11,257 nt of DNA from positions 1 to 11,257 of the forward strand of contig JAUYMQ010000204.1 of assembly GCA_030698575.1 (NCBI GenBank), read 5' to 3'. A model generated the notes under the pieces. It searched no databases, was not told the origin of the DNA, and saw only the letters and a program-made list of their open reading frames with translations. The DNA is from Deltaproteobacteria bacterium (GTDB lineage: Bacteria > JAUYMQ01). The translations under genes were made by a program, and so were the position numbers. This document shows positions 1-11,239 of this stretch, piece by piece (within the stretch, counting starts at the first letter, position 1; each line of letters opens with the position of its first letter).

Positions 1-118
1 CCTGGGTGGAATCGGTGAGGGCCTTGACCCGGAAGCCTTCCTCCGTGAGGAACTGCTTCAGGTACTCGCACACGTCCTTGTCGTCATCGACGACCAGAAT
101 TCTGATCTTCGCAGCCAT
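1..118 (-). CDS. Response regulator, receiver domain N-terminus (partial)
   Basis: Reading the minus strand from the ATG at 118 gives 39 residues before the window ends. They start MAAKIRILVVDDDKDVCEYL, a classic CheY-like receiver opening: a hydrophobic first beta strand (IRILVV), the acidic cluster D11-D13 that binds the metal for phosphotransfer, and an amphipathic first helix. The phosphoacceptor aspartate (usually near residue 55) and any output domain lie outside the window, so it cannot be said whether this is a single-domain protein or a DNA-binding regulator. A purine-rich GAGGAGAG lies at 130-137, 11-13 bases upstream, slightly long but usable as a ribosome-binding site. It has the same orientation as the salvage operon but is separated from it by 344 bp, so it is probably a separate transcription unit. 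The receiver identity is secure; its role here is unknown. Confidence 0.9.
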   Translation of the reverse strand, partial: MAAKIRILVVDDDKDVCEYLKQFLTEEGFRVKALTDSTQ

Positions 119-316
119 GATGAAATCGTCTCTCCTCTACACTGCCCGGCCTCGCCGAAAGGAGGTCCCTGGTCGGGGCAGGTTGAAGGCCGGCCCGCGC
201 GCGCTGGGCGCAGGCGCGATCTGTGGGGGCGTCAACTTCGAATGCAACGGAATGGATGGAGAAGGCGCGGACCGCCCGTGCCGAAGAGCGGTCGAAGCTT
301 TTCCAAAGCGGGTCCT

Positions 317-345
317 ACTCTAACGATGTTCCAGCAGGGGTGCAA
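317..345 (-). promoter_or_regulatory. Weak candidate sigma70-like promoter for the response regulator
   Basis: On the minus strand TTGCAC (340-345) and TAGAGT (317-322) are separated by exactly 17 bases. They match the -35 and -10 consensus at 3 and 4 of 6 positions. The pair lies about 200 bases upstream of the response regulator start, at the edge of the AT-rich island. The match is weak and could be chance. A second option is TTGAAT further upstream, with TGTATC 16 bases downstream of it. Confidence 0.2.
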
Positions 346-382
346 TGAGGGATACAGTATTTATCGAGGTAAATTCAACTCC

Positions 383-442
383 ATGTCTTCTAGCATATCT
401 TCTAGCATGTCTTCTGGCACGTATTCTAGCCTGTATTCATGG
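383..442. repeat. 12-bp imperfect tandem repeat, about five copies
   Basis: Five consecutive 12-base units start at 383, 395, 407, 419 and 431. On the plus strand they read ATGTCTTCTAGC, ATATCTTCTAGC, ATGTCTTCTGGC, ACGTATTCTAGC and CTGTATTCATGG. The first three differ by single bases, the fourth by a few, and the fifth is strongly decayed. The array lies in an AT-rich island just downstream of the murU-like stop codon and upstream of the response regulator. The period is a multiple of three, but no supported gene runs through it. Spacing near one helical turn could suit repeated protein binding; slippage of a neutral sequence is equally possible. Confidence 0.8.
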
Positions 443-462
443 GGTTTCCGTGAGGGGGCGGC

Positions 463-1530
463 TCATTCCAGGTTGACGGCCGGGTCGACAGCCACCCGCC
501 GGCTGGAGGTAAGGATCGTCCGCTCGAGAACGGCTCCCTCGGGCGCCACTGCGCCCTCCCACAGGATCGTGTGGGCGATCGCGCTGCCCGCGGCGGCGCG
601 GCTGGCGGATCCCAGAAGTGCGTAGGGGCCGACGCGGGCGCCCGCCTCCACTGCTGCGTTCTCGCCGACGTACAGCGGGGCTTGAAGGACGGCCGCCGGA
701 TCGATCCGGGCTCCCGCCGAGATCCATATACCGGGAGAGCGCTCGACGGCGCCGGCGGAGCGGAGCCAGCCCGGTCCGCCCGCGTAATCGGGCTGCAACC
801 GCCCGTCGAGCAGTGCTTCGGCCGTCGCGAGATAGCGCGCCGGGGTTCCCACGTCGGAAAAGCTCCTGGCCAGGAAGCATGCCCGGATAGTTTCGCCCGC
901 TGCGAGCAGGCGGGGATAGACATCGGCGTTGATGCAGAAGATGTCCGTCACGGGCATTAAGTCGAAGATGCGGGGCTCGATCACGTGGATTCCGCAGAAG
1001 TGACCCAGGCGCGCCGGTCTTCCGCGCCATCCGGCGCGCCCGGCGATGTCGCGGACGCGCATATCTTCATCGACGGCCACCAGCCCGTACTCCTTGCCGT
1101 CCGCGGGCGCCTCGGCGAGCACCATTGTTGCCGCCGCGCCGCTTCGCTCGTGCTCTTCAATGGCCGACGGAAGATCGACGTCGGAGATGGTGTCCCCGTT
1201 CACGACCACGAAGGGGCCGCCCTCCAGAAAGTCGCGGGCGCGCTTGATCCCGCCACCCGTGCCGAGAAGCTCCGGCTGCTCCTCGGAAAAGTGAATCGAA
1301 AGTCCGAGATCGCCTCCGGCGCCGAAGCGTTCGCGGATCTGTCCGCCCATGTGGTGGAGGTTCATCATCACCTCGCGGACGCCGGCCTGTCGCAGCATGA
1401 GGAGCGGGTAGTGCAGGATGGTGAGAGGTCCCAGGGGGAAGAGCGGCTTCGGGCGCTCGTCGCTGAGCGGGCGGAGCCGCGTTCCGCGCCCCGCGGCCAG
1501 CACCATGGCCCGGCGAATGGCCCGGCTCAA
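463..1530 (-). CDS. murU: MurU-like sugar-1-phosphate nucleotidyltransferase with C-terminal beta-helix
   Basis: Likely transfers a nucleotide (UMP, if truly MurU) to a sugar 1-phosphate, here probably MurNAc-1-phosphate made by the adjacent kinase, giving UDP-MurNAc in the cytoplasm. The N-terminal nucleotidyltransferase fold shows the signature LAAGRGTRLRPL (11-22) with PKP (27-29, K28), ELLGTGGGI (87-95), the metal-binding NGD (111-113) and DVGTP (226-230). Residues from about 265 to 345 look like hexapeptide-type left-handed beta-helix turns, with repeated small and hydrophobic residues. Pseudomonas MurU is only about 220 residues and lacks this part, so this 355-residue protein is longer than the founding member. 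The start is TTG at 1530, overlapping the upstream kinase stop and preceded by GAGG 7 bases away; an internal ATG at 1506 has no such site. General NDP-sugar pyrophosphorylase (mannose- or glucose-1-phosphate) activity is the main alternative; the kinase and NagZ neighbours favour MurU. Confidence 0.8.
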   Translation of the reverse strand: MSRAIRRAMVLAAGRGTRLRPLSDERPKPLFPLGPLTILHYPLLMLRQAGVREVMMNLHHMGGQIRERFGAGGDLGLSIHFSEEQPELLGTGGGIKRARDFLEGGPFVVVNGDTISDVDLPSAIEEHERSGAAATMVLAEAPADGKEYGLVAVDEDMRVRDIAGRAGWRGRPARLGHFCGIHVIEPRIFDLMPVTDIFCINADVYPRLLAAGETIRACFLARSFSDVGTPARYLATAEALLDGRLQPDYAGGPGWLRSAGAVERSPGIWISAGARIDPAAVLQAPLYVGENAAVEAGARVGPYALLGSASRAAAGSAIAHTILWEGAVAPEGAVLERTILTSSRRVAVDPAVNLE

Positions 1531-2594
1531 AGTTCCGCCTCGCGCGAAAGCTCGGCTTGCAGGATCTCCCGCGCGGCGCCCAGCTCGGGGAGCTTCGCCG
1601 CGGCGTCCAGGATGTAGCGCGCATTCGCCGGGTTGTAGCCGAGGTACGCCGGATTCCCCTTCACACGGTCTATGTAGACGAATCGGCCGTAGTCCTTCAG
1701 CTTGCGCTGGAGCGTCATGCGCGCGAACTCCTCCTTGAGGCCGGCCGGCGGCTCAGCCGCGCCCAGCGCGGCCGCGCGTTCCAGGTAGTCCTCCAGCAGG
1801 CAATCGAGAAGCGCAGGGCCGAGTTCGACGTAAGAGTCGCGCAGCAGGGCCACGAGGTCATAGGTGCGAGGACCCCGGAGCGCGTCCTGGAAGTCGATGA
1901 GCCGGATTCGCTCCCCCTGCACGATCAGGTTCTTGCTCTGGTAGTCCCTGTGCGTGAAGACCTGCGGCGCGGCGGCCAGACGTTGCGCGATCCCCCGAAA
2001 GCTTTTCCTCAGGGTCTCGAGGGCGGCGGCGTCTTCCGGGCGCCCGAGCTTGGTCCCGTAGCCGTACTCGATGTAGTGCTCGAATTCCCAGAGGAGCAGG
2101 GTTTCGCTCAAGGCCGCCTTTGAGGCCAGGCAATCCGCGCCGAGTCGCCGCGTTCCCTCGGTCTGGAGGGTAAGCAGCAGATCGAGCGCGCGGCCATACC
2201 AGAGCCGCCGCTCCGCGTCGTCGGCGTCCCGGACGAGATGCTCGAAGAGCCGGTCGCCCAGATCCTCGAGGTACATCAGCCCGTGCTCCGCGTCGAAGTG
2301 GTAGACCTCCGGCACTGCATCCGTGAAGCGGCGCAGGAAACGATGGACGTTCAGGAAGGGAAGCTCGTCCGTGCCCGATTCGACCTCGACGATCTCGTCC
2401 GACTTGATCCCCCGGTCATCCCCCAGGAGCACCATCAGCGCGATGCTGCGCGGCCCGTTTCCGGCGCCGAGCAGGACGCGGTAGTAGGCCCTGCTCGATG
2501 CGTGAGCCGCGAGCGGGCGGATCTCGATCTCGCCGGCGGGGCATCCGAAGCGGGCCGCCACCGTCTCGCGTACGCGCGGCTCGAACTTTTCCAT
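1527..2594 (-). CDS. amgK: AmgK-like N-acetylmuramate/N-acetylglucosamine anomeric kinase (APH fold)
   Basis: A 355-residue kinase of the aminoglycoside phosphotransferase fold. In Pseudomonas, AmgK phosphorylates MurNAc (and GlcNAc) at the anomeric position with ATP, feeding MurU. Visible here are the catalytic loop THRDYQSKN (214-222, base D217, N222), the metal-binding IDFQDA (233-238, D234) and the following GPRTYDLVALLRD (241-253). This IDFQDA..GP..YDL pattern is typical of the AmgK subgroup rather than antibiotic-resistance enzymes. The N-terminal SSRAYYRV region (33-40) fits the nucleotide-binding loop. The start is ATG at 2594 with only a weak GGGA upstream. It lies 60 bases after nagZ, and its TGA overlaps the TTG start of the murU-like gene. 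Pairing with a nucleotidyltransferase and NagZ makes a role in murein sugar salvage likely. A plain sugar kinase or other APH-family member is a weaker alternative. Confidence 0.87.
   Translation of the reverse strand: MEKFEPRVRETVAARFGCPAGEIEIRPLAAHASSRAYYRVLLGAGNGPRSIALMVLLGDDRGIKSDEIVEVESGTDELPFLNVHRFLRRFTDAVPEVYHFDAEHGLMYLEDLGDRLFEHLVRDADDAERRLWYGRALDLLLTLQTEGTRRLGADCLASKAALSETLLLWEFEHYIEYGYGTKLGRPEDAAALETLRKSFRGIAQRLAAAPQVFTHRDYQSKNLIVQGERIRLIDFQDALRGPRTYDLVALLRDSYVELGPALLDCLLEDYLERAAALGAAEPPAGLKEEFARMTLQRKLKDYGRFVYIDRVKGNPAYLGYNPANARYILDAAAKLPELGAAREILQAELSREAEL
1538..1541 (-). promoter_or_regulatory. Ribosome-binding site deciding the TTG start of the murU-like gene
   Basis: GAGG on the minus strand lies 7 bases before TTG at 1530, inside the 3' end of the amgK-like gene. 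No purine-rich site precedes the internal ATG at 1506. This supports a TTG start that overlaps the kinase TGA and suggests translational coupling. Confidence 0.5.
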
Positions 2595-2654
2595 GAGTAA
2601 TCCCGATCAATGACCCAAAAAGTCCAGCTCTATTGCTCTTCCACTATGCCCGGC

Positions 2655-3776
2655 TCATTTGCCCTGCTTCATGATCCTGGCCACAAGGCGGCGATGCGCG
2701 GGGCGTCCCACCCATGAGATGGGGGCCCGGCCTGCCGCGCGCGCGACAATGAAGCGCCGCTTCAGGGCGAGGATCCGCCGGACCGCCTCGTCGATGCGGC
2801 GCATCGGGATCTCTCCCTTTTCGGCGCGCGACAGCAAGTGGCGGTATGCGCGGCGCTGCGCCCGGGCGTCGTGGCAGACGAGAAGGATGTCGGCGCCCGC
2901 CATGATGCTGTTGAATGCTGCCTCCTCGATCGTCTGTCCCTGGCGCGCGCCGGCCATCGAGAGATCGTCGCTCACGATGGCGCCGCGATAACCGAGCCGC
3001 CCGCGCAGTATGCCCTGCAGGATGGCGGGCGAGAAGCTTGCGGCGCGCTTTCGATCCCAGGCGGGATACAGAACGTGCGCCGTCATCAGGCTGGGCATTC
3101 CGGCGCGCACGGCTGCCCGAAAGGGGGCGAGTTCAACGGCTGCGAGCGATCGCGCGCTTCGCTTCACGACCGGTAGCGAGAAGTGCGAATCATCGACCGT
3201 ATCCCCGTGGCCGGGAAAGTGCTTTCCCGTCGTCAGAATGCCCGCGCGGCGGAGCCCCCGCTCAACGGCGAGAGCCAGGCGAGCCGCGCTTCCCGCGCGG
3301 CGCCCGTAGGCGCGCGGTCCGATCACCGGGTTGCGCGGATTGGTGTCGAGGTCGAGCACCGGCGCGAAGTTCCAGTGAATTCCCACGGCCCGCAGCTCTC
3401 GCCCCATCGCCAGCCCAACCGCTGTCGCGGCGGCGAGATCACCCGTGCGCTCCACGTAGCGGGCAACGTCGCCGGCCGCCGGCCATGGGGTGAACGGGGG
3501 AACGCGAAGCCGCATGACCGGGCCGCCTTCCTGATCGATCGAGATGAGTGGCGGAACGGGGGAGTTAACGCGGCTGATCTCCGCGCAGAGCTGGCGAACC
3601 TGACGCACTCCTTTCACGTTTCGTGCAAAGAGGGTGACGCCGCCGAGGCCCTGCTCCTCCAGAAAGCGTCTGAGGGCTCGGGAGACCTTCGTCCCCTCGA
3701 ATCCCACGACGAAGAGCTGCCCGATCTTGAGGGCAAGGGGCATCTCTGAAACGCGGGGCAGCGATCGTCCGGGCAT
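2655..3776 (-). CDS. nagZ: Beta-N-acetylglucosaminidase NagZ (glycoside hydrolase family 3)
   Basis: NagZ removes GlcNAc from GlcNAc-anhydroMurNAc (peptides) in the cytoplasm during peptidoglycan recycling. The 373-residue protein carries the GH3 features in order: LISIDQEGGPVMRL (77-90), KHFPGHGDT (185-193) followed by DSH (196-198, the Asp-His catalytic dyad of NagZ), and SDDLSM (269-274), whose first aspartate (D270) is the expected nucleophile. No signal peptide is seen, in agreement with a cytoplasmic enzyme, and no second GH3 C-terminal domain is present, as usual for Gram-negative NagZ. The ATG at 3776 is chosen because AGGAG lies 5 bases upstream; an internal methionine at residue 12 has no better site. 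It follows the dppC-type gene by 11 bases and precedes the amgK-like gene, so it links the importer to the sugar-activating enzymes. This identification is one of the firmest in the window. Confidence 0.95.
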   Translation of the reverse strand: MPGRSLPRVSEMPLALKIGQLFVVGFEGTKVSRALRRFLEEQGLGGVTLFARNVKGVRQVRQLCAEISRVNSPVPPLISIDQEGGPVMRLRVPPFTPWPAAGDVARYVERTGDLAAATAVGLAMGRELRAVGIHWNFAPVLDLDTNPRNPVIGPRAYGRRAGSAARLALAVERGLRRAGILTTGKHFPGHGDTVDDSHFSLPVVKRSARSLAAVELAPFRAAVRAGMPSLMTAHVLYPAWDRKRAASFSPAILQGILRGRLGYRGAIVSDDLSMAGARQGQTIEEAAFNSIMAGADILLVCHDARAQRRAYRHLLSRAEKGEIPMRRIDEAVRRILALKRRFIVARAAGRAPISWVGRPAHRRLVARIMKQGK

Positions 3777-3781
3777 GCCTT

Positions 3782-3790
3782 CTCCTGTCA
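3782..3790 (-). promoter_or_regulatory. nagZ ribosome-binding site abutting the dppC-type stop codon
   Basis: On the minus strand the permease stop TGA (3788-3790) is followed after one base by AGGAG (3782-3786), then 5 bases and the nagZ ATG at 3776. The arrangement suggests that ribosomes finishing the permease start nagZ, tying the importer and the hydrolase in one operon. Confidence 0.7.
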
Positions 3791-4603
3791 GCCTGCTGAT
3801 CCGAAGGCGCGCATGCGCGGATCGAGCCGATCCCGCAGGCCGTCTCCGAGGAAATTGAGGCCCAGGATGGTGATCATGAGGGCAAGCCCGGGAAAGATCG
3901 AAAGGTGAGGGGCCATGAAAAGGTAGTCGATTCCCTCGTTCAGCATCCCGCCCCAGCTTGGCATTCCCTGCGCTCCCAGCCCGAGGAACGAGAGGCTCGC
4001 CTCGCCCAGGATGGCCGCGGCAACGCCGAAGGTCGCCTGCACGATGATCGGCGCCCAGAGGTTGGGAAGGATATGCCGGAGGATGATCCGGCTGTCTCCC
4101 GCGCCCAGCGCGCGGGCGGCGCTCACGTACTCCATCTCACGGATCTTCAGGAACTCCCCCCGGACCAACCGCGCGTAGCCGACCCAGCCGAGGGCCGAGA
4201 GGGCGAACACGATGTTGCGCAGGCTCGGCCCCAGGATCGCCGTGAGCGCGATGGCCAGCAGAATTCCCGGGAAAGCCTGCAGGATGTCGATGGCCCGCAT
4301 GATGACCTCGTCGGCAATCTTGCCGAAATAGCCTGCCAGGCTCCCCAGAAAGAGCCCCACCAGGACCGAGATGGCCACTGTCGAGATTCCCACCAGCATC
4401 GAAACCCGCGCGCCGTAGAGGATGCGGCTCAGGATGTCGCGGCCGGAGCGGTCCTGGCCGAGCGGGTGCTCCGCGCTGGGCCCGCGGAATTTCTCCGCGA
4501 GGACCTGACGGTCGGGGTTCGCCGGCGCGAGGGCAGGGGCGGCGACGGCCACGAGCAGCGTGATCGCCATGATCGCCAGCCCCACGCGCGCAAGCAGGCT
4601 CAT
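3788..4603 (-). CDS. ABC transporter permease, DppC/OppC type
   Basis: Inner-membrane permease of the peptide/opine/nickel importer family, 271 residues. It opens with a membrane segment (about 5-25), then the family's periplasmic stretch HPLGQDRSGRDILSRILYGAR (in 46-66). Further hydrophobic segments lie at about 69-92, 107-125, 130-146, 186-204 and 236-253. The cytoplasmic EAA loop that docks the ATPase is EYVSAARALGAG..RIILRHILPN (158-181). EASLSFLGLG (201-210) and the C-terminal GDGLRDRLDPR (253-263) are hallmarks of the DppC side. The start at 4603 has a G-rich site (GAGGGGG) just upstream. The gene is 45 bases after its DppB-type partner and 11 bases before nagZ. The substrate cannot be read from the permease; the operon suggests murein peptides or muropeptides. 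Confidence 0.92.
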   Translation of the reverse strand: MSLLARVGLAIMAITLLVAVAAPALAPANPDRQVLAEKFRGPSAEHPLGQDRSGRDILSRILYGARVSMLVGISTVAISVLVGLFLGSLAGYFGKIADEVIMRAIDILQAFPGILLAIALTAILGPSLRNIVFALSALGWVGYARLVRGEFLKIREMEYVSAARALGAGDSRIILRHILPNLWAPIIVQATFGVAAAILGEASLSFLGLGAQGMPSWGGMLNEGIDYLFMAPHLSIFPGLALMITILGLNFLGDGLRDRLDPRMRAFGSAG

Positions 4604-4648
4604 CGGTCCCCCTCTCCCTTCCCCGACGCCCGCTCCGGGGCAGCCGGA

Positions 4649-5569
4649 CTACTCCATGCGAATTCTTGGGTCCACCGCCGCGTACAGGAGGTCAATGGCC
4701 AGATTGACGAGGACGTAGCTCAAGCTGATCGCCAGCACGCACCCCTGGACCAGGGGGTAGTCGCGCGCCTCGATACCGTCGACGAGCAGGCGTCCGATGC
4801 CCGGCCAGGCGAAGACCTTCTCGGTCACCACGGCGCCGGAGAGCAGCGCCCCGATCTGCAGCCCCAGCACGGTCAGAACCGGGATCAGCGCGTTTCGAAA
4901 TCCGTGTTTCAGGATCAGCGTGCGCTCCGTGAGCCCCTTTGCACGGCCCGCGGTGATGTACTCCTCGCGGATGACTTCGAGCATCGCCGACCGGGTCATC
5001 CGCGAAAGGATGGCCGCCAGCGCCGTGCCGAGCGTGATCGCCGGCAGTACCAGACTCGAAATGCCTGCCCTTCCCGAAACCGGGAACCAGTCGAGATGGA
5101 TCGCGAAGGCGAGGATCAGCAGAGGTCCGAGCCAGAAGCTCGGCATCGAAACGCCGACGAGCGAGAGGAACATCGAGCCGTGGTCGAAAGCAGAGTAGGG
5201 GCGGATGGCCGACATGATCCCCGCGGGGATTGCGATGAGGATCGCGATGATCATGGCGGCCGTCGCCAGCTCCAGGGTGGCCGGAAGGCGCGCGAGGACC
5301 ATTTCCATCACCGGCTTGTCATATCGCAGCGATCGGCCGAGGTCGCCGTGAACCAGGCCTCGCAGGAAGCGCACGTACTGCTCCCCGAGCGGGCGGTCGA
5401 GGCCCATCTGCGTGCGCAGCTCCGCCACATCGGCCGCCCGGGCCGTGTCGCCGAGCATGATGGCCAAGGGGTCGCCGGGGATAAAATGAATGAAGAAGAA
5501 GACGAGAGTCGAGACCATGAAGGTCACGAACACGAGGAAGGCGAGGCGCCTCGCGATGAACGTGCTCAT
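4649..5569 (-). CDS. ABC transporter permease, DppB/GsiC type
   Basis: Inner-membrane permease pairing with the DppC-type protein, 306 residues, the normal length for the family. The N-terminal membrane segment (about 9-29) ends in the conserved FIPGDP (29-34). MGLDRPLGEQYVRFLRGL (55-72) and GDLGRSL (75-81) are standard for DppB. Hydrophobic segments follow at about 98-122, 130-158, 172-190, 227-248 and 273-296. The ATPase-contacting EAA loop is EEYITAGRAKGL (202-213), and FAWPGIGRLLV (253-263) is a family signature. The ATG at 5569 overlaps the TGA of the binding-protein gene (ATGA), with GGAG a few bases upstream, indicating translational coupling. No ATP-binding partner is encoded in the window, so the ATPase must be supplied from elsewhere. 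Confidence 0.93.
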   Translation of the reverse strand: MSTFIARRLAFLVFVTFMVSTLVFFFIHFIPGDPLAIMLGDTARAADVAELRTQMGLDRPLGEQYVRFLRGLVHGDLGRSLRYDKPVMEMVLARLPATLELATAAMIIAILIAIPAGIMSAIRPYSAFDHGSMFLSLVGVSMPSFWLGPLLILAFAIHLDWFPVSGRAGISSLVLPAITLGTALAAILSRMTRSAMLEVIREEYITAGRAKGLTERTLILKHGFRNALIPVLTVLGLQIGALLSGAVVTEKVFAWPGIGRLLVDGIEARDYPLVQGCVLAISLSYVLVNLAIDLLYAAVDPRIRME

Positions 5570-7119
5570 TGCTCTCCGGACCTGTCGCTCTCCAGCGCCC
5601 CCGCCAGGCTCGCGGCCAGCACGCCGCGAAGATCCCCGCCCAGCCAGATGTCATATCCTTCGACGCGATTCTGCATGGCTGCGACGTCCGTGGCGTACCA
5701 CAGGGGGACGTAGGGGAGGTCATGCGCGATGATCCGGAGCGCCTCGGCATACAGTGATTTGCGCTCCGCCTCCCCCGTGACTTCCCTCGCGCGGGTGACC
5801 AGCTCGTCCACCCGCTGGTTCGCGTAGCGGCCGCGGTTGGCGCCGTTCTCGGGAATGCTCTCCGAGTGGAACGCGTAGTAGAGGATGTCCGGATCGGTCA
5901 CGCCTACCCAGGTCAATCCGAACATCTGGAAATTGCCCCGCTTCACATCATCGTACAGCGTTCCGAACTCGAGCGATCGGAGCCGCGCGTCGATCCCGAC
6001 CTCTCTCATGTACTGCACGATCGACTCGCCAATCTGAACCCGTTCCTTGTTCGTCGAGGTCTTGTAGGTGATCGCGAATCGCCACCCGTTCTTGTCCGGC
6101 AGAAGTCCGGCTTCGTCCAGGAGCGCGCGAGCGCGGGCGGGGTCATAGTCGTAGCTCTCCACGTCGTCGGCATAAGCCCAGTTCGTCGGGGCGAGCAGCT
6201 CCCTGGCCGGCGTAGCGAGGCCCTGCAGCACGTGCTCGATGATCGCCTCCCGGTCGATCGCATGCGCGATGGCCGCGCGCACGGCGCGCTTCTTCAGGAG
6301 GGGGTCCTCCATGTTGAAGCCCAGATAGGAGAAGTTGATTCCCGGCCGGGTCATCACCTCGACGCCCGGATCCTCCCGCAGGAATTCCACCGCGTGCGCC
6401 GGGATGGCGTTCTGGACCAGATCCACGGAGCCCTTGCGAAGCTCGAGCACGCGGGTCGTGTCGTTGGGGACGATCTTGAACACGGCGCTTTCGATGCGCG
6501 GAGGCCCGCCATGGTAGGAAGCGTTCGCCTTCATGACGACGCGACTGTCGGTTTCCCAGGCGCTGAAGCGGAACGGCCCGGTGCCGATGGGCGCCTTCGC
6601 AAATGACTCGGGGCTCTGGCCCGCGAGATCCGTCGGCACGATGCCCGTGGCCGCCGCGGTCAGGAATGGCGCGTAAGGGGCATCGAGCCGGATGATCACC
6701 GTGTGGGGGTCGGGTGTTTCCACCGCCTCCACCCTTGAAAAGTCGCTCCTCCGCGGAGATCGCGTCTTCTCGTCGAGAATGGATGCGATCGTGAAGGCGA
6801 CATCCGCCGAGGTGAAAGGTTGCCCGTTGTGGAAGCGAACGTCCCGGCGGAGGTGAAAGACGTAGGTCCGCGGGTCGGGCGTTTCCACACGCTCCGCCAG
6901 ATCGGGAACGAGCCGCCCGTCGCGATCCTGCGTCATGAGGCCGTTGAAGAGGAGCGCTGACAGCCGCGAGGAATAAGCATCCGTAGCCAGGCGAGGGTCG
7001 AGCGTCGAGGGGTTCGATTCGATGGCAATGACGAGGGTGTTCCCCTCGGGGCGCGGAGACCCGCCGCACCCGCTGGCGAGAAACGCCGCGGCGAGAAGGA
7101 ACGTTACGGAGCGCCGCAT
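5566..7119 (-). CDS. Family-5 solute-binding lipoprotein (DppA/OppA/MppA type)
   Basis: Extracytoplasmic binding protein of the peptide/nickel ABC importer family, 517 residues. The start MRRSVTFLLAAAFLASGCGG is a lipoprotein signal peptide with cysteine 18 as the lipidation site, which supports the ATG at 7119. The mature part has the family-5 pattern: STLDPRLATD (38-47), LFNGLMTQDRDGRLVPDLAE (57-76), LRRDVRFHNGQPFTSADVAF (90-109) and IGTGPFRFSAWE (178-189). No ribosome-binding site is evident upstream, so the message may be nearly leaderless. It is the first gene of the minus-strand operon and overlaps the DppB-type gene by four bases. Related binding proteins carry oligopeptides, murein tripeptide (MppA) or muropeptides (YepA with YejBEF in Agrobacterium). 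Given nagZ, amgK and murU downstream, a cell-wall fragment is the best guess for the ligand; this is inferred from context only. Confidence 0.93.
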   Translation of the reverse strand: MRRSVTFLLAAAFLASGCGGSPRPEGNTLVIAIESNPSTLDPRLATDAYSSRLSALLFNGLMTQDRDGRLVPDLAERVETPDPRTYVFHLRRDVRFHNGQPFTSADVAFTIASILDEKTRSPRRSDFSRVEAVETPDPHTVIIRLDAPYAPFLTAAATGIVPTDLAGQSPESFAKAPIGTGPFRFSAWETDSRVVMKANASYHGGPPRIESAVFKIVPNDTTRVLELRKGSVDLVQNAIPAHAVEFLREDPGVEVMTRPGINFSYLGFNMEDPLLKKRAVRAAIAHAIDREAIIEHVLQGLATPARELLAPTNWAYADDVESYDYDPARARALLDEAGLLPDKNGWRFAITYKTSTNKERVQIGESIVQYMREVGIDARLRSLEFGTLYDDVKRGNFQMFGLTWVGVTDPDILYYAFHSESIPENGANRGRYANQRVDELVTRAREVTGEAERKSLYAEALRIIAHDLPYVPLWYATDVAAMQNRVEGYDIWLGGDLRGVLAASLAGALESDRSGEQ

Positions 7120-7127
7120 CGACGCGG

Positions 7128-7156
7128 AGACTATCAGAGAGTTGACGGCTTGTCAT
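7128..7156 (-). promoter_or_regulatory. Candidate promoter for the salvage operon, giving a near-leaderless mRNA
   Basis: On the minus strand ATGACA (7151-7156, 5 of 6 to TTGACA), a 17-base spacer and TAGTCT (7128-7133, TAnnnT form) precede the ATG at 7119. Transcription would begin only a few bases before the start codon. This would explain why no ribosome-binding site is seen for the binding-protein gene. The -10 match is poor. Confidence 0.3.
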
Positions 7157-7205
7157 GAAGAAGAGCGGAAAGCGTCTCCGGGGAAGCCAGATCGTCACAT
7201 TACGG

Positions 7206-7232
7206 TTGAAGGGTCCGGGGGGTTCTGTTAAT
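7206..7232 (+). promoter_or_regulatory. Weak candidate promoter for dacB-mltD
   Basis: TTGAAG (7206-7211) and GTTAAT (7227-7232, 4 of 6) are separated by 15 bases, shorter than the preferred 17. A start of transcription near 7239 would leave a leader of about 28 bases carrying the GGAGG at 7256-7260. The position suits the dacB-type gene, but the match is weak. Confidence 0.2.
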
Positions 7233-7255
7233 GAAATGAGACCGACGAGCGTCCC

Positions 7256-7260
7256 GGAGG
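7256..7260 (+). promoter_or_regulatory. Strong Shine-Dalgarno site upstream of the dacB-type signal peptide
   Basis: GGAGG is a full core Shine-Dalgarno sequence. The codon six bases downstream, in the frame of the dacB-type protein, is ATA at 7267 rather than ATG. The site shows that translation probably begins near 7267 and not at the first in-frame ATG at 7540, which lies inside the catalytic domain. Confidence 0.5.
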
Positions 7261-7266
7261 CGGGCT

Positions 7267-8841
7267 ATAAGAAACCTCAGCCGGTTTTCCGCCGGTATTC
7301 TGATCCGCTCCTGTCCGCGCCGGCGGGCGGGAGCCCTCCTGTTCCTTCTGGCGACGCTCCTGGCGATCCCCCCTCCCGTCGTTTCGGCCGCGGGTGAAAA
7401 TCCCGCGACGCGATCGGCATCAGACTCCCCCCCGACTGCTGAGCCAGCCGCGGAGATTGATCACGCGGCAGGGCCGGATCTTGCCCGGGAGCGCCTTGCG
7501 CGCGCGATCCGGCAGGCACTCTCCGCGGCGCCCGCCGGCATGGCGGTGGGGGTGGCCGTGTTGTCGGGTGAGACGGGAGAAATACTCTTTGAGAGCGGGG
7601 CCCGGCAGCCGCTCATTCCGGCTTCGAACGCCAAGATCTTCACGATCGCGGCCGCGCTGGATCGTCTCGGGACGGCGTTCGTTTTTCGCACGGAAGTTCT
7701 GGGGACGGGCCCGATCGAGGCCGGGGTGCTCCGGGGCGGGATCACCCTCCGGGGGTCGGGCGACCCCTCGCTCACGACCGAAGATCTGTGGGCGCTCGCG
7801 CTCGATCTTGAGGCTCTCGGCATAAAGCGTATCGAGGGGGATCTTGTTCTGGACGATGGGGCGCTGGATCGGACGCAGGCCCCGGCGGCGCGCGCCGATC
7901 GGTACGGCGACCGCCCTTATGGCGCGATGACATCGGCGCTCACCTCGAATTTCAACACGATCGCGGTTGAAGTGGCGCCGGGTCCGAGGAGCGGCGGGCC
8001 CGCCCGGGTCGTGACCGTGCCGCCGATCCCCCGGGTGCGCGTCGAGAACCGGACGGTGACGGCTTCCCGGGATGGCGGGCGCGAGAGCCTCGCGGTCTCG
8101 ATCGCGGAGCCCGCGGGTGAGGGGCCGGCCGAGGTCGTGACCGTGCGGGGGAGCATTCCGGCCGGTTCACCGCCACGGCGCATCTGGCGAAGCGTGGGGC
8201 GACCGGCGCTGGTGACGGGGCTCCTGTTCAAGGGGCTTCTGGATCGGGCCGATATCGGCTTGAGCGGGGAAGTCCGGACCGGCGCCGCGCCCGCCGGCCA
8301 CCGTGTGCTTGCATCGCACGCGTCGGCACCCCTTTCGGTGCTCCTTCGCGACGTGGGCAAGCGCTCGAACAATCTCTACGCCGAGCAGATTCTCAAGGCG
8401 CTCTCCCAGGCTCAGCCGGGTTCCACTCGCGGGGGGATTGGCGCCGTGGAGGGATGGTTCGACAAGGTCGGAATACCGCGCAGCAGCGTTCGCGTGGCCG
8501 ACGGATCAGGACTCTCGACGCAAAATCGCGTGGCGCCCCTGGAGTTGGCGAGAGCGCTGCGCGCCGGCGCGCGGAGTCCGATTTCAGGCGCTGAGTTCCG
8601 GAGCGCTTTTGCAATCGCGGGTGTGGACGGTACACTGGAGAAGCGAATGACCGGGCTCAGGGGCAGAGTGCGCGGGAAGACGGGCTATCTTACCGGCGTG
8701 AGCGCGCTATCGGGGTGGGTGACCACGCCGGCCGGAGACGAAGTCTTCTTCGCGATTCTCGCCAATAAGATCGGGGCCGATCCGTCTGCCGCGAAATCGC
8801 TTCAGGATCGAATCGTCCGGGTTGTTGCCAATGCGAACTAG
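7267..8841 (+). CDS. dacB: D-alanyl-D-alanine carboxypeptidase/endopeptidase, PBP4 (DacB) type, without canonical start codon
   Basis: A penicillin-binding peptidase of family S13. Such enzymes cleave D-Ala-D-Ala ends and peptide cross-links in periplasmic murein. Counting from the first in-frame ATG (7540), the active-site motifs are SNAK (29-32, S29 nucleophile, TCG at 7624), SNN (276-278) and KTG (380-382), with DGSGLS (321-326) typical of PBP4. That ATG lies inside the first beta strand of the fold, so it is not the true start. In frame upstream, about 7300-7395 encodes a clear signal peptide: arginines (CPRRR), a hydrophobic core (AGALLFLLATLLAI) and an export-type VVSAA end. Between the stop at 7237 and 7540 there is no ATG, GTG or TTG. 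ATA at 7267 has GGAGG 6 bases before it; CTG at 7300 gives the shorter signal peptide but has no ribosome-binding site. From 7267 the product is 524 residues. The stop overlaps the mltD-like gene. Confidence 0.85.
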   Translation: MRNLSRFSAGILIRSCPRRRAGALLFLLATLLAIPPPVVSAAGENPATRSASDSPPTAEPAAEIDHAAGPDLARERLARAIRQALSAAPAGMAVGVAVLSGETGEILFESGARQPLIPASNAKIFTIAAALDRLGTAFVFRTEVLGTGPIEAGVLRGGITLRGSGDPSLTTEDLWALALDLEALGIKRIEGDLVLDDGALDRTQAPAARADRYGDRPYGAMTSALTSNFNTIAVEVAPGPRSGGPARVVTVPPIPRVRVENRTVTASRDGGRESLAVSIAEPAGEGPAEVVTVRGSIPAGSPPRRIWRSVGRPALVTGLLFKGLLDRADIGLSGEVRTGAAPAGHRVLASHASAPLSVLLRDVGKRSNNLYAEQILKALSQAQPGSTRGGIGAVEGWFDKVGIPRSSVRVADGSGLSTQNRVAPLELARALRAGARSPISGAEFRSAFAIAGVDGTLEKRMTGLRGRVRGKTGYLTGVSALSGWVTTPAGDEVFFAILANKIGADPSAAKSLQDRIVRVVANAN

Positions 8842-11239
8842 GAAACATGACGGGGGGATGCTCACGGTACTGCTCGCACTGGTGCTCCTGCTGGGAGCGC
8901 CGGCCGCGTGGGCCGAGCGTGGTGGTGTGGCTTCGCCCCGCCTGCCCGGCGACCGTGGAGGCGGATACGCCGTTCCACCCCTCACGGGCGAGTTCGCCGC
9001 CCGGCCGGAGCTTCGCCCTGCAATCGAGTTCTGGAAGGGGGTCTTCGGCCTCTACAGCACCGACCAGGCCGTGGTCCACCACGCGCAACAGCTCGACGTC
9101 ATCTACAGCATCCTCGATTTCAAAGACCTGAGAGGCAACCCCCGTGCCGCGAGCATCCGGCGGTCGCGAACTGAGGCCGAGGTGGGCCGGGTCCAGGCGA
9201 TGCTGCGCCGCATGCAGGCCGCGGGCGCGCCGGCCGGCCTTTCCGAGAAGGAGCGCCGCATTTATGATCAGCTCCGCAAGGCGCCGGGCGGCGTGAGGTC
9301 GGCGGCGATCGAAGAGAACATCCACGTTCAGAGCGGCATCAGCGATCGGTTCCAGGAGGGATTGATAGTCTCGCGGCGCTACCTGCCGGAGATCGAAGCC
9401 ATCTTCAGGGAAGAGGGGCTCCCGCCGCAGCTCACGCGAATGCCCTTCGTCGAGTCGACCTTCAACGTCAAGGCCCATTCCAAGGCGGCGGCCTCCGGGA
9501 TCTGGCAGTTCATCCCCTCAACCGGGCGGCTCTACCTCCAGATCACGAACGCGGTGGATGAGCGCCGCGATCCGATCATGGCCACTCACGCGGCCGCGAA
9601 GCTCCTGAAGCACAACTACAGCGTTTCCAGGCGGTGGCCGCTGGCCGTGACCGCTTACAACCACGGTCTCGGCGGGGTCATGCGGGCTGTCCGCACCACG
9701 GGTTCCTCGGACATCGTCGACATCATCCGGAACTACCAGGGTGCCCGATTCGGGTATGCCTCCCGAAACTTCTTCGTGGAGCTTCTTGCCGCCCTGGAGG
9801 TTGAGCGCGACTACGAGCGATACTTCGGGCGCCTCAGCTTCCCGCCGCCTTTCAGCTACGACGAGATCCGGCTCAACCGTTCCCTGCTGGCGCGCCACCT
9901 GGTGCAGGGAGGGCTCAGCCAGGATGATCTGACCGAGATGAACCTCGCGCTGAGCGAGCGGACGCTCAACAATTACTACTCGATACCGGCAGGCATGCCG
10001 ATCCGCGCGCCGCTCGGCCGTGGCGAAACCATCGTCGCGCGCCTGAACGGCTTGCGCGAGTCCGAAGTGGCGACCGCTGTCGCCAGGGGGCCCGGAAAGC
10101 ACCGGGTGCGCTCGGGCGAAACCCTCTCCGGCGTGGCGAGCCGCTACGGGCAGAGCCGACACGCCCTGGCCCGCGCGAACGGAATCTCATCGAATGCCAG
10201 GTTGAGAGTCGATCAGGTGCTCACCGTGCCCGGGAGTTCGGGCGGCAGTCGGAGCGTCTCGATCGGTTCGGGAAACCGGGCGATCTTCGTGCGGAGGGTC
10301 GACCCCGGGCAGACCTTCCGCGCTGTGGAGCCGGAGGCCGCTCCCCCCACGCGGATGGCCTCGAGCCGGGGCTCCTTCGATGCGACCGCCATCGCCCTAG
10401 ATGCTTCTGAGAGGCCCGCTTCTGAGATGCCGGCCTCGGAGGGCTCGGCGCACGCAATCGCGCCTCCACCCAGGATCGAGAAGAAGGACGCCGAGACTCC
10501 CCCGGCGGTCATACCTCCGGCACCGGCACCGGCCCCGCCCGCGGCCGGGAAGCGACAGGACTCCGCTGACAAAAAGCTGAACGAACCGGTGTTGGATGAA
10601 GCGGCCCCAGCGGTCGCCCGGGAAGCACCACCAGCCCCCCCGGCGGCCGCGCCCGATCCAGCTCTGCCGGCCAAGCCCATCGCATCGCCCGGCGCTGTTA
10701 TCGGCAGGACGGCCCCGGCGCAACCCTCGGGCGGAGAGGCCGTGGCCGGGGAGCCGTCCGCACCCGAAGAGTTGGGCGTGACCCATGTTGTGCGTCGCAA
10801 CGAGACGCTCTGGATCATCGCAAAGAATTATGGCGTCTCGGTGGCCTCAATCGAGCGCGCGAACGCAGACAAGCGCCTCTCGCCGCTCATTCCGGGAACC
10901 CGGCTCGCCGTCAATGGCGGCTCAGCGGCGCGGGAAGACGCCCCAAGCGAGACCCATGTGGTGCGACGCAACGAAACGCTCTCACGCATCGCGAAGAAAT
11001 ACGACGTGTCGCTTTCGGATCTCAGGTTGTCGAACGCGGAGAAGCGTCTCTCTCCGCTGATGCCGGGAACCAGGCTCCGGGTTCCCGGGTCGGGCAAGAC
11101 GCATGTTGTGCGTCGCAACGAGACGCTCTGGGGGATCGCCCAGCGCTACCGGGTTTCATTGAACGATCTGAAGGCGGCCAATTCCGGCAAGAGGCTCTCG
11201 CCGCTCAAGCCCGGCACGGAACTGTTCATACCCGGATAG
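8831..11239 (+). CDS. mltD: MltD-like lytic transglycosylase with four LysM repeats
   Basis: Periplasmic enzyme that cleaves the MurNAc-GlcNAc bond of murein to give 1,6-anhydroMurNAc ends. Numbered from ATG 8831 (802 residues): signal peptide 1-28 (MRTRKH, hydrophobic 11-24, AWA end); the SLT catalytic domain about 190-330 with MPFVESTFN (204-212, catalytic E208), SGIWQFIPSTG (222-232) and AYNHGLGGVMRA (275-286); LysM 1 at about 423-467; a long Pro/Ala-rich linker about 500-648; and LysM 2, 3 and 4 from 651, 708 and 757. E. coli MltD has about 450 residues, two LysM and a lipoprotein anchor. Here there is no lipobox cysteine, so a soluble or murein-bound periplasmic protein is likely. ATG 8831 is chosen over 8858 because it supplies the positive n-region; TTG at 8822 is also possible. 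It overlaps the dacB-type gene by 11 bases, so the two form an operon. Confidence 0.92.
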   Translation: MRTRKHDGGMLTVLLALVLLLGAPAAWAERGGVASPRLPGDRGGGYAVPPLTGEFAARPELRPAIEFWKGVFGLYSTDQAVVHHAQQLDVIYSILDFKDLRGNPRAASIRRSRTEAEVGRVQAMLRRMQAAGAPAGLSEKERRIYDQLRKAPGGVRSAAIEENIHVQSGISDRFQEGLIVSRRYLPEIEAIFREEGLPPQLTRMPFVESTFNVKAHSKAAASGIWQFIPSTGRLYLQITNAVDERRDPIMATHAAAKLLKHNYSVSRRWPLAVTAYNHGLGGVMRAVRTTGSSDIVDIIRNYQGARFGYASRNFFVELLAALEVERDYERYFGRLSFPPPFSYDEIRLNRSLLARHLVQGGLSQDDLTEMNLALSERTLNNYYSIPAGMPIRAPLGRGETIVARLNGLRESEVATAVARGPGKHRVRSGETLSGVASRYGQSRHALARANGISSNARLRVDQVLTVPGSSGGSRSVSIGSGNRAIFVRRVDPGQTFRAVEPEAAPPTRMASSRGSFDATAIALDASERPASEMPASEGSAHAIAPPPRIEKKDAETPPAVIPPAPAPAPPAAGKRQDSADKKLNEPVLDEAAPAVAREAPPAPPAAAPDPALPAKPIASPGAVIGRTAPAQPSGGEAVAGEPSAPEELGVTHVVRRNETLWIIAKNYGVSVASIERANADKRLSPLIPGTRLAVNGGSAAREDAPSETHVVRRNETLSRIAKKYDVSLSDLRLSNAEKRLSPLMPGTRLRVPGSGKTHVVRRNETLWGIAQRYRVSLNDLKAANSGKRLSPLKPGTELFIPG
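10781..11236 (+). repeat. Three near-identical LysM-coding repeats at the 3' end of mltD
   Basis: Three units begin at 10781, 10952 and 11099, each encoding THVVRRNETL near its start and KRLSPL.PGT near its end. A 30-base stretch at 10784-10813 recurs exactly at 11102-11131, and the middle unit differs at several bases. The first LysM (about residues 423-467) is much more divergent. The pattern indicates recent duplication inside the gene, and the copy number may vary between strains. Confidence 0.85.

Follow-up and report, generated by a model that had tools for sequence, protein, structure and literature searches.

The window analysed here is a single contig of 11,257 nucleotides (C217) from an assembly of 4.1 Mb in 653 contigs, 91.6% complete. 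It carries a run of six genes, all on the minus strand, from 7119 down to 463. Open reading frames and domain searches confirm the sequence-only reading of six co-directional genes joined by overlaps or short gaps. The first gene (5566..7119) encodes a family-5 solute-binding protein, or SBP (Pfam SBP_bac_5, 317 bits), probably a lipoprotein judging from its N-terminus (...FLASGC). Its end overlaps the start of the next gene by ATGA (7119-5566 against 5569-4649). Two permeases follow, one of the DppB/OppB type (4649..5569) and, after a gap of 45 nt, one of the DppC/OppC type (3788..4603). They match Pfam BPD_transp_1 at 145 and 120 bits, and the best NCBIfam permease match, Opp2B, is barely above its cut-off (361 vs 350). 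NagZ, a beta-N-acetylglucosaminidase of family GH3, starts 11 nt further on (2655..3776; Glyco_hydro_3, 267 bits; KHFPGHG motif) and exceeds the curated cut-off of NCBIfam model PRK05337 (265 vs 207 bits); a signal peptide is not obvious in it. A gap of 60 nt separates NagZ from an AmgK-like sugar kinase of the APH fold (1527..2594; Pfam APH, 57 bits; HRDYQSKN and IDFQD motifs), which overlaps by TTGA the last gene, encoding a MurU-like nucleotidyltransferase with a C-terminal extension (463..1530; NTP_transferase, 90 bits; LAAGRGTR and GTGGG motifs).

Upstream of this operon, and transcribed divergently from it on the plus strand, lie genes for two murein hydrolases, a PBP4/DacB DD-peptidase (7540..8841; Peptidase_S13, 302 bits; TIGR00666) and an MltD-type lytic transglycosylase (8822..11239; SLT and LysM domains, the latter as four repeats). 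An in-frame hydrophobic N-terminus from about 7282 indicates that the true start of PBP4 is probably upstream of 7540. A consensus scan of positions 1-7700 returned no promoter-like site, and terminator-like sites at no more than chance level. Just 3' of the MurU-like gene, at 382-438, is a 12-base tandem repeat, CATGTCTTCTAG, in about five copies. Farther downstream, at 2-118 on the minus strand, a response-regulator receiver domain begins and is truncated by the edge of the window. The window has no ATPase gene. Contig C497 of the same assembly carries a separate dpp operon encoding two OppD/F-type ATPases with the oligo_HPY domain. Borrelia Opp offers an earlier example of two permease pairs that share a single pair of ATPases (PMC5736914).

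Recurrence and phylogeny of the importer genes

Linkage of these genes was surveyed from two sides. The NagZ side comprised about 84 loci with their flanks, drawn from genomes across the bacterial phyla; in 12 of them the gene directly upstream of NagZ encodes a DppC-type permease, most with DppB too. In the control, 40 loci of up to 16 kb centred on AmgK, DppB/DppC occur twice, both times also with NagZ. Scanning of named genomes with SBP peptide patterns only gave 80 SBP loci, which are phylogenetically non-independent. Within 7.5 kb of the SBP these contain DppB (37 loci), NagZ (18), AnmK (10), PBP4 (6) and MltD (6), counts that are lowered by the ends of contigs. Of the 80 loci, 31 have one or more of the murein genes NagZ, AnmK, PBP4 and MltD, while about half have no DppB nearby, in part from contig ends.

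The core SBP-DppB-DppC-NagZ, or just DppB-DppC-NagZ, recurs in several phyla, and the DppC of the window is 45-66% identical to NagZ-adjacent DppC proteins of other phyla. The gene order on which the sequence-only reading was built thus reappears across phyla in its core, but among the loci surveyed, in which the window's own phylum is represented by one genome, that of the window, only the window has all six genes in this order. MltD-PBP4 // SBP-DppB-DppC-NagZ is also the layout of L222, from an Oligoflexia MAG (genome G178, the same record), and of L227; when the phylum of G178 was searched for the SBP, a linked copy was found in G178 only. In the three gammaproteobacterial loci tested (L250, L255 and L278), a gene for a YkuD L,D-transpeptidase lies between SBP and DppB. 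At L061, DppBC-NagZ adjoins genes for AnmK, MurU, AmgK, M48 and MltD. Partial versions include DppC-NagZ-AmgK in G185 (L052). An LdcA-NagZ-AmgK-like-MurU-like run at L129 (1-3474; G147), on a short contig with no importer gene, supports a recycling role for the kinase and transferase pair.

Several other neighbours were observed at these loci. AnmK is directly upstream of the SBP in Acidobacteriota loci L223, L225, L226, L229, L230 and L232-L236, where DppB/DppC were not found at the locus. A gene for an MscS-type mechanosensitive channel lies just 3' of NagZ in gammaproteobacterial loci L250 (14813-15910), L255 (7233-8351) and L268 (17216-18304); E. coli mppA likewise adjoins an MscS-type gene, ynaI. 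A CYTH-domain (triphosphate tunnel) gene is immediately upstream of the SBP in L250 (9510-9992) and L248 (9287-9754). A plasmid of Deinococcus peraridilitoris (L327, 2415-8845) has SBP-DppB-DppC followed by an M20 peptidase, NlpC/P60 and a dipeptide epimerase; its DppB falls outside the murein-linked DppB clade described below, and the gene content suggests a distinct cluster for the import of murein peptides.

In phylogenetic trees the SBPs form one clade of 81 rows (SH-aLRT 98); eight SBPs of E. coli, MppA included, lie outside it, as do paralogues from the same genomes. Percent identity between DppBs was rejected as a sole line of evidence, since generic plasmid DppBs are up to 51% identical to the DppB of the window, and the DppB tree was therefore rebuilt with them. 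Two independent routes led to the DppBs of SBP-linked and NagZ-linked loci, and these group in a single clade (99/99). Neither the E. coli paralogues nor the closest plasmid homologues sampled belong to it, and the rooting is unsure because the outgroup branches are long. In trees that do not contain YepA, E. coli YejA is not part of the SBP clade and YejB is not part of the DppB clade, and the branches of both are very long.

Cytoplasmic enzymes and the distribution of AmpG

The kinase has AmgK as its sole named NCBIfam match, at scores below the curated cut-offs (112 vs 550 and 90 vs 500 bits). The transferase also scores below cut-off (134 vs 250 and 80 vs 370 bits), with a mannose-1-phosphate guanylyltransferase model ranking best and MurU second. 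MurU structure 4y7t matches it at 90 bits, and its length of 355 aa includes a C-terminal extension absent from the 226-aa MurU. The low scores leave AmgK and MurU function possible, because the functional Caulobacter AmgK and MurU are just 30% and 37% identical, respectively, to the Pseudomonas proteins (PMC13046382). The two genes are adjacent in the window, and the partner occurs within 1.5 kb in 22 of 40 AmgK loci.

A full AnmK in the window genome was rejected: the match covers just about 45 residues (29 bits), lies within an unrelated frame on contig C346 (L172, 8519-8700), and looks like a remnant. On the other strand, at 5969-8413, it is adjoined by an N-acetylglucosaminidase gene with NAGidase and GH20b domains. 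With AnmK reduced to a fragment, conversion of anhydroMurNAc to MurNAc is unaccounted for; the Pseudomonas route as known could not use anhydroMurNAc here, nor in several related genomes from which AnmK is absent. Three explanations offer themselves: AnmK is encoded in a part of the genome missing from the assembly, the cell uses fragments with ordinary MurNAc, or AmgK serves GlcNAc released by NagZ. Among the 50 SBP-bearing genomes, AmgK is found in 43 and AnmK in 38, compared with 100 and 91 of the 290 genomes of a phylum-wide sample, an enrichment that is only suggestive because the two samples differ in taxonomy and phylogeny is uncorrected. AmgK and MurU seem to have been added locally to an importer-NagZ core that is conserved. 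Given the sub-cut-off scores and the AnmK fragment, the case for the reactivation half of the operon is weaker than that for the importer half. The proposal that uptake, trimming and reactivation are united in one operon therefore agrees with the gene content, but is qualified by an ATPase encoded outside, by the gap at AnmK and by the scores of AmgK and MurU.

AmpG was not found in the window genome, where an assembly about 92% complete gave no TIGR00901 match above cut-off; the nearest candidate is a partial MFS match of 35 bits at a contig edge, which Pfam places as generic MFS. Across the phylum-wide set, AmpG reaches cut-off in 19 of 290 genomes and NagZ is present in 167. Within that set AmpG occurs in none of the 12 genomes with NagZ beside the permease and in 16 of the 155 other NagZ genomes (p 0.6); among SBP-bearing genomes it occurs in 1 of 18 with linked NagZ and 10 of 32 without (p 0.07). 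Anticorrelation with AmpG was rejected as proof because these differences are weak and AmpG is commoner in SBP-bearing genomes (11 of 50) than in the phylum-wide set. The idea that the ABC importer replaces AmpG fits the window genome but does not extend to every genome with the SBP. A telling contrast comes from two genomes of one phylum: G033 has AmpG, and NagZ beside PBP4, while G178 has SBP-DppBC-NagZ beside PBP4, and AmpG is absent.

The ligand of the binding protein

Peptide SBPs bind the N-terminal amine of the peptide through an Asp, Asp419 in Salmonella OppA and Asp445 in E. coli precursor numbering (PMC5736914). In all 81 family SBPs our alignment has I, V, A or L in this column (DppA D408/OppA D419), while the Asp is kept in DppA, OppA, MppA, SapA and DdpA. 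The position of the DppA Arg is mainly T in the family, and DppA structure 8z1z alters the corresponding Asp and Arg pair (R383D, D436R). Loss of the Asp would fit a ligand with a blocked amino end, for example a peptide attached to MurNAc, and the window SBP is unlikely to hold ordinary peptides. As YejA, NikA and GsiB have also lost this Asp, its absence excludes the usual free-amine binding mode without naming the ligand.

The predicted structure of the SBP (pLDDT 94) has an ordinary family-5 fold. Assignment of a ligand from the fold was rejected, because the best matches (NikZ, a Bacillus SBP, GsiB, AppA, DppA and sialic-acid SBPs, at Z 38-45) span many ligand types; solved relatives bind peptides, nickel complexes, glutathione, opines and sialic acid. 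A structure search recognised no murein ligand in any solved member of the SBP family.

Gene order, domain content, recurrent linkage, a common clade and loss of the amine-binding Asp are the observed basis for reading the operon as parts of a murein-fragment ABC importer together with cytoplasmic processing enzymes. We hold this reading at a probability of roughly 0.8; the ligand, the sharing of an ATPase, the specificity of the enzymes and the physiological role are inferred. PBP4 and MltD would free murein fragments in the periplasm, and the lipoprotein SBP would capture those whose amino end is blocked by a sugar. DppB and DppC would import them, powered by a shared OppD/F-type ATPase encoded elsewhere. 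NagZ would then cleave off GlcNAc, the AmgK-like kinase would yield a sugar-1-phosphate (of MurNAc and/or GlcNAc), and the MurU-like enzyme would convert this to a UDP-sugar.

Much of the same gene content could serve import of chitooligosaccharides or GlcNAc, with NagZ splitting GlcNAc-GlcNAc, AmgK making GlcNAc-1-phosphate and the transferase making UDP-GlcNAc. Vibrio family-5 SBPs bind chitobiose, the AmgK family name covers GlcNAc besides MurNAc, the fragmentary AnmK is compatible with such a route, and proteins with the SBP fold include binders of amino sugars, among them the sialic-acid SBPs 5za4 and 5z99. We nevertheless give this account little probability, as the recurrent neighbours AnmK, PBP4, MltD and YkuD are murein-specific and no chitinase was seen within the window. 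It is hardly likely that the system imports free murein peptides in the manner of E. coli MppA-OppBCDF, with NagZ merely a related neighbour gene: MppA, a solved relative from the peptide superfamily to which DppB, DppC and the SBP belong, retains the Asp that the whole family has lost, and NagZ, the immediate neighbour, requires sugar substrates. An ordinary dipeptide or nickel importer with coincidental neighbours, as the Opp2B match and the unlinked ATPase genes might suggest, is highly improbable in view of a linkage that recurs over many phyla with several different murein genes, and of a DppB in a separate clade.

Relation to known recycling systems

The closest described case to the proposed murein-fragment importer is YejBEF-YepA of Agrobacterium (PMC9790009), likewise an ABC importer with a family-5 SBP in place of AmpG, and one whose SBP and permease/ATPase genes are also not united in one operon. 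Unlike that system, the window family adjoins NagZ, AnmK or PBP4/MltD, and its SBP and DppB are remote from E. coli YejA and YejB in the trees; YepA itself has been reported from Alphaproteobacteria only (PMC9790009). The window importer is best read as analogous to YejBEF-YepA, yet distinct from it. AmpG has the same proposed cargo and pathway position, but is an MFS muropeptide permease from an unrelated protein family. MppA-OppBCDF, the E. coli importer of murein tripeptide, resembles the window system in its superfamily, its murein-derived cargo and its shared permease and ATPase; it differs in its free peptide ligand, and MppA, with its amine-binding Asp, sits outside the SBP clade. The Dpp and Opp peptide importers have a homologous permease pair, but their amine-binding Asp is absent from the window SBP. 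The AnmK-MupP-AmgK-MurU pathway of Pseudomonas and Caulobacter shares the AmgK-MurU gene pair and NagZ, whereas the window pair is in one operon with an importer, AnmK is a fragment, and the MurU-like protein has its C-terminal extension. Searches of open-licence full texts for NagZ with DppB, for an oligopeptide SBP with muropeptide and for AmpG-less ABC recycling found the system undescribed, an absence that is not proof of novelty.

The core inference of the sequence-only reading stands, and is broader than first stated, as a murein-linked ABC importer family. Phyla with the importer family include Nitrospirota, Myxococcota, Bdellovibrionota, Thermodesulfobacteriota, Acidobacteriota and Nitrospinota, along with Gammaproteobacteria and others. 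Loss of the amine-binding Asp together with a conserved GANRGRY stretch provides a sequence mark by which further members may be recognised. We consider it rather likely that AmpG and YejBEF-YepA are joined by a third kind of muropeptide importer of wide occurrence, formed by SBP-DppB-DppC and coupled genetically to NagZ, AnmK, PBP4/MltD or YkuD. Most of what is known about murein recycling comes from bacteria with AmpG. If true, a third kind of importer would explain murein recycling in many bacteria that lack AmpG, and the NagZ-adjacent ABC importer, for which cultured hosts exist, among them Methylohalomonas lacus and the ampG-bearing Halochromatium roseum, is a testable candidate for fragment uptake in them.
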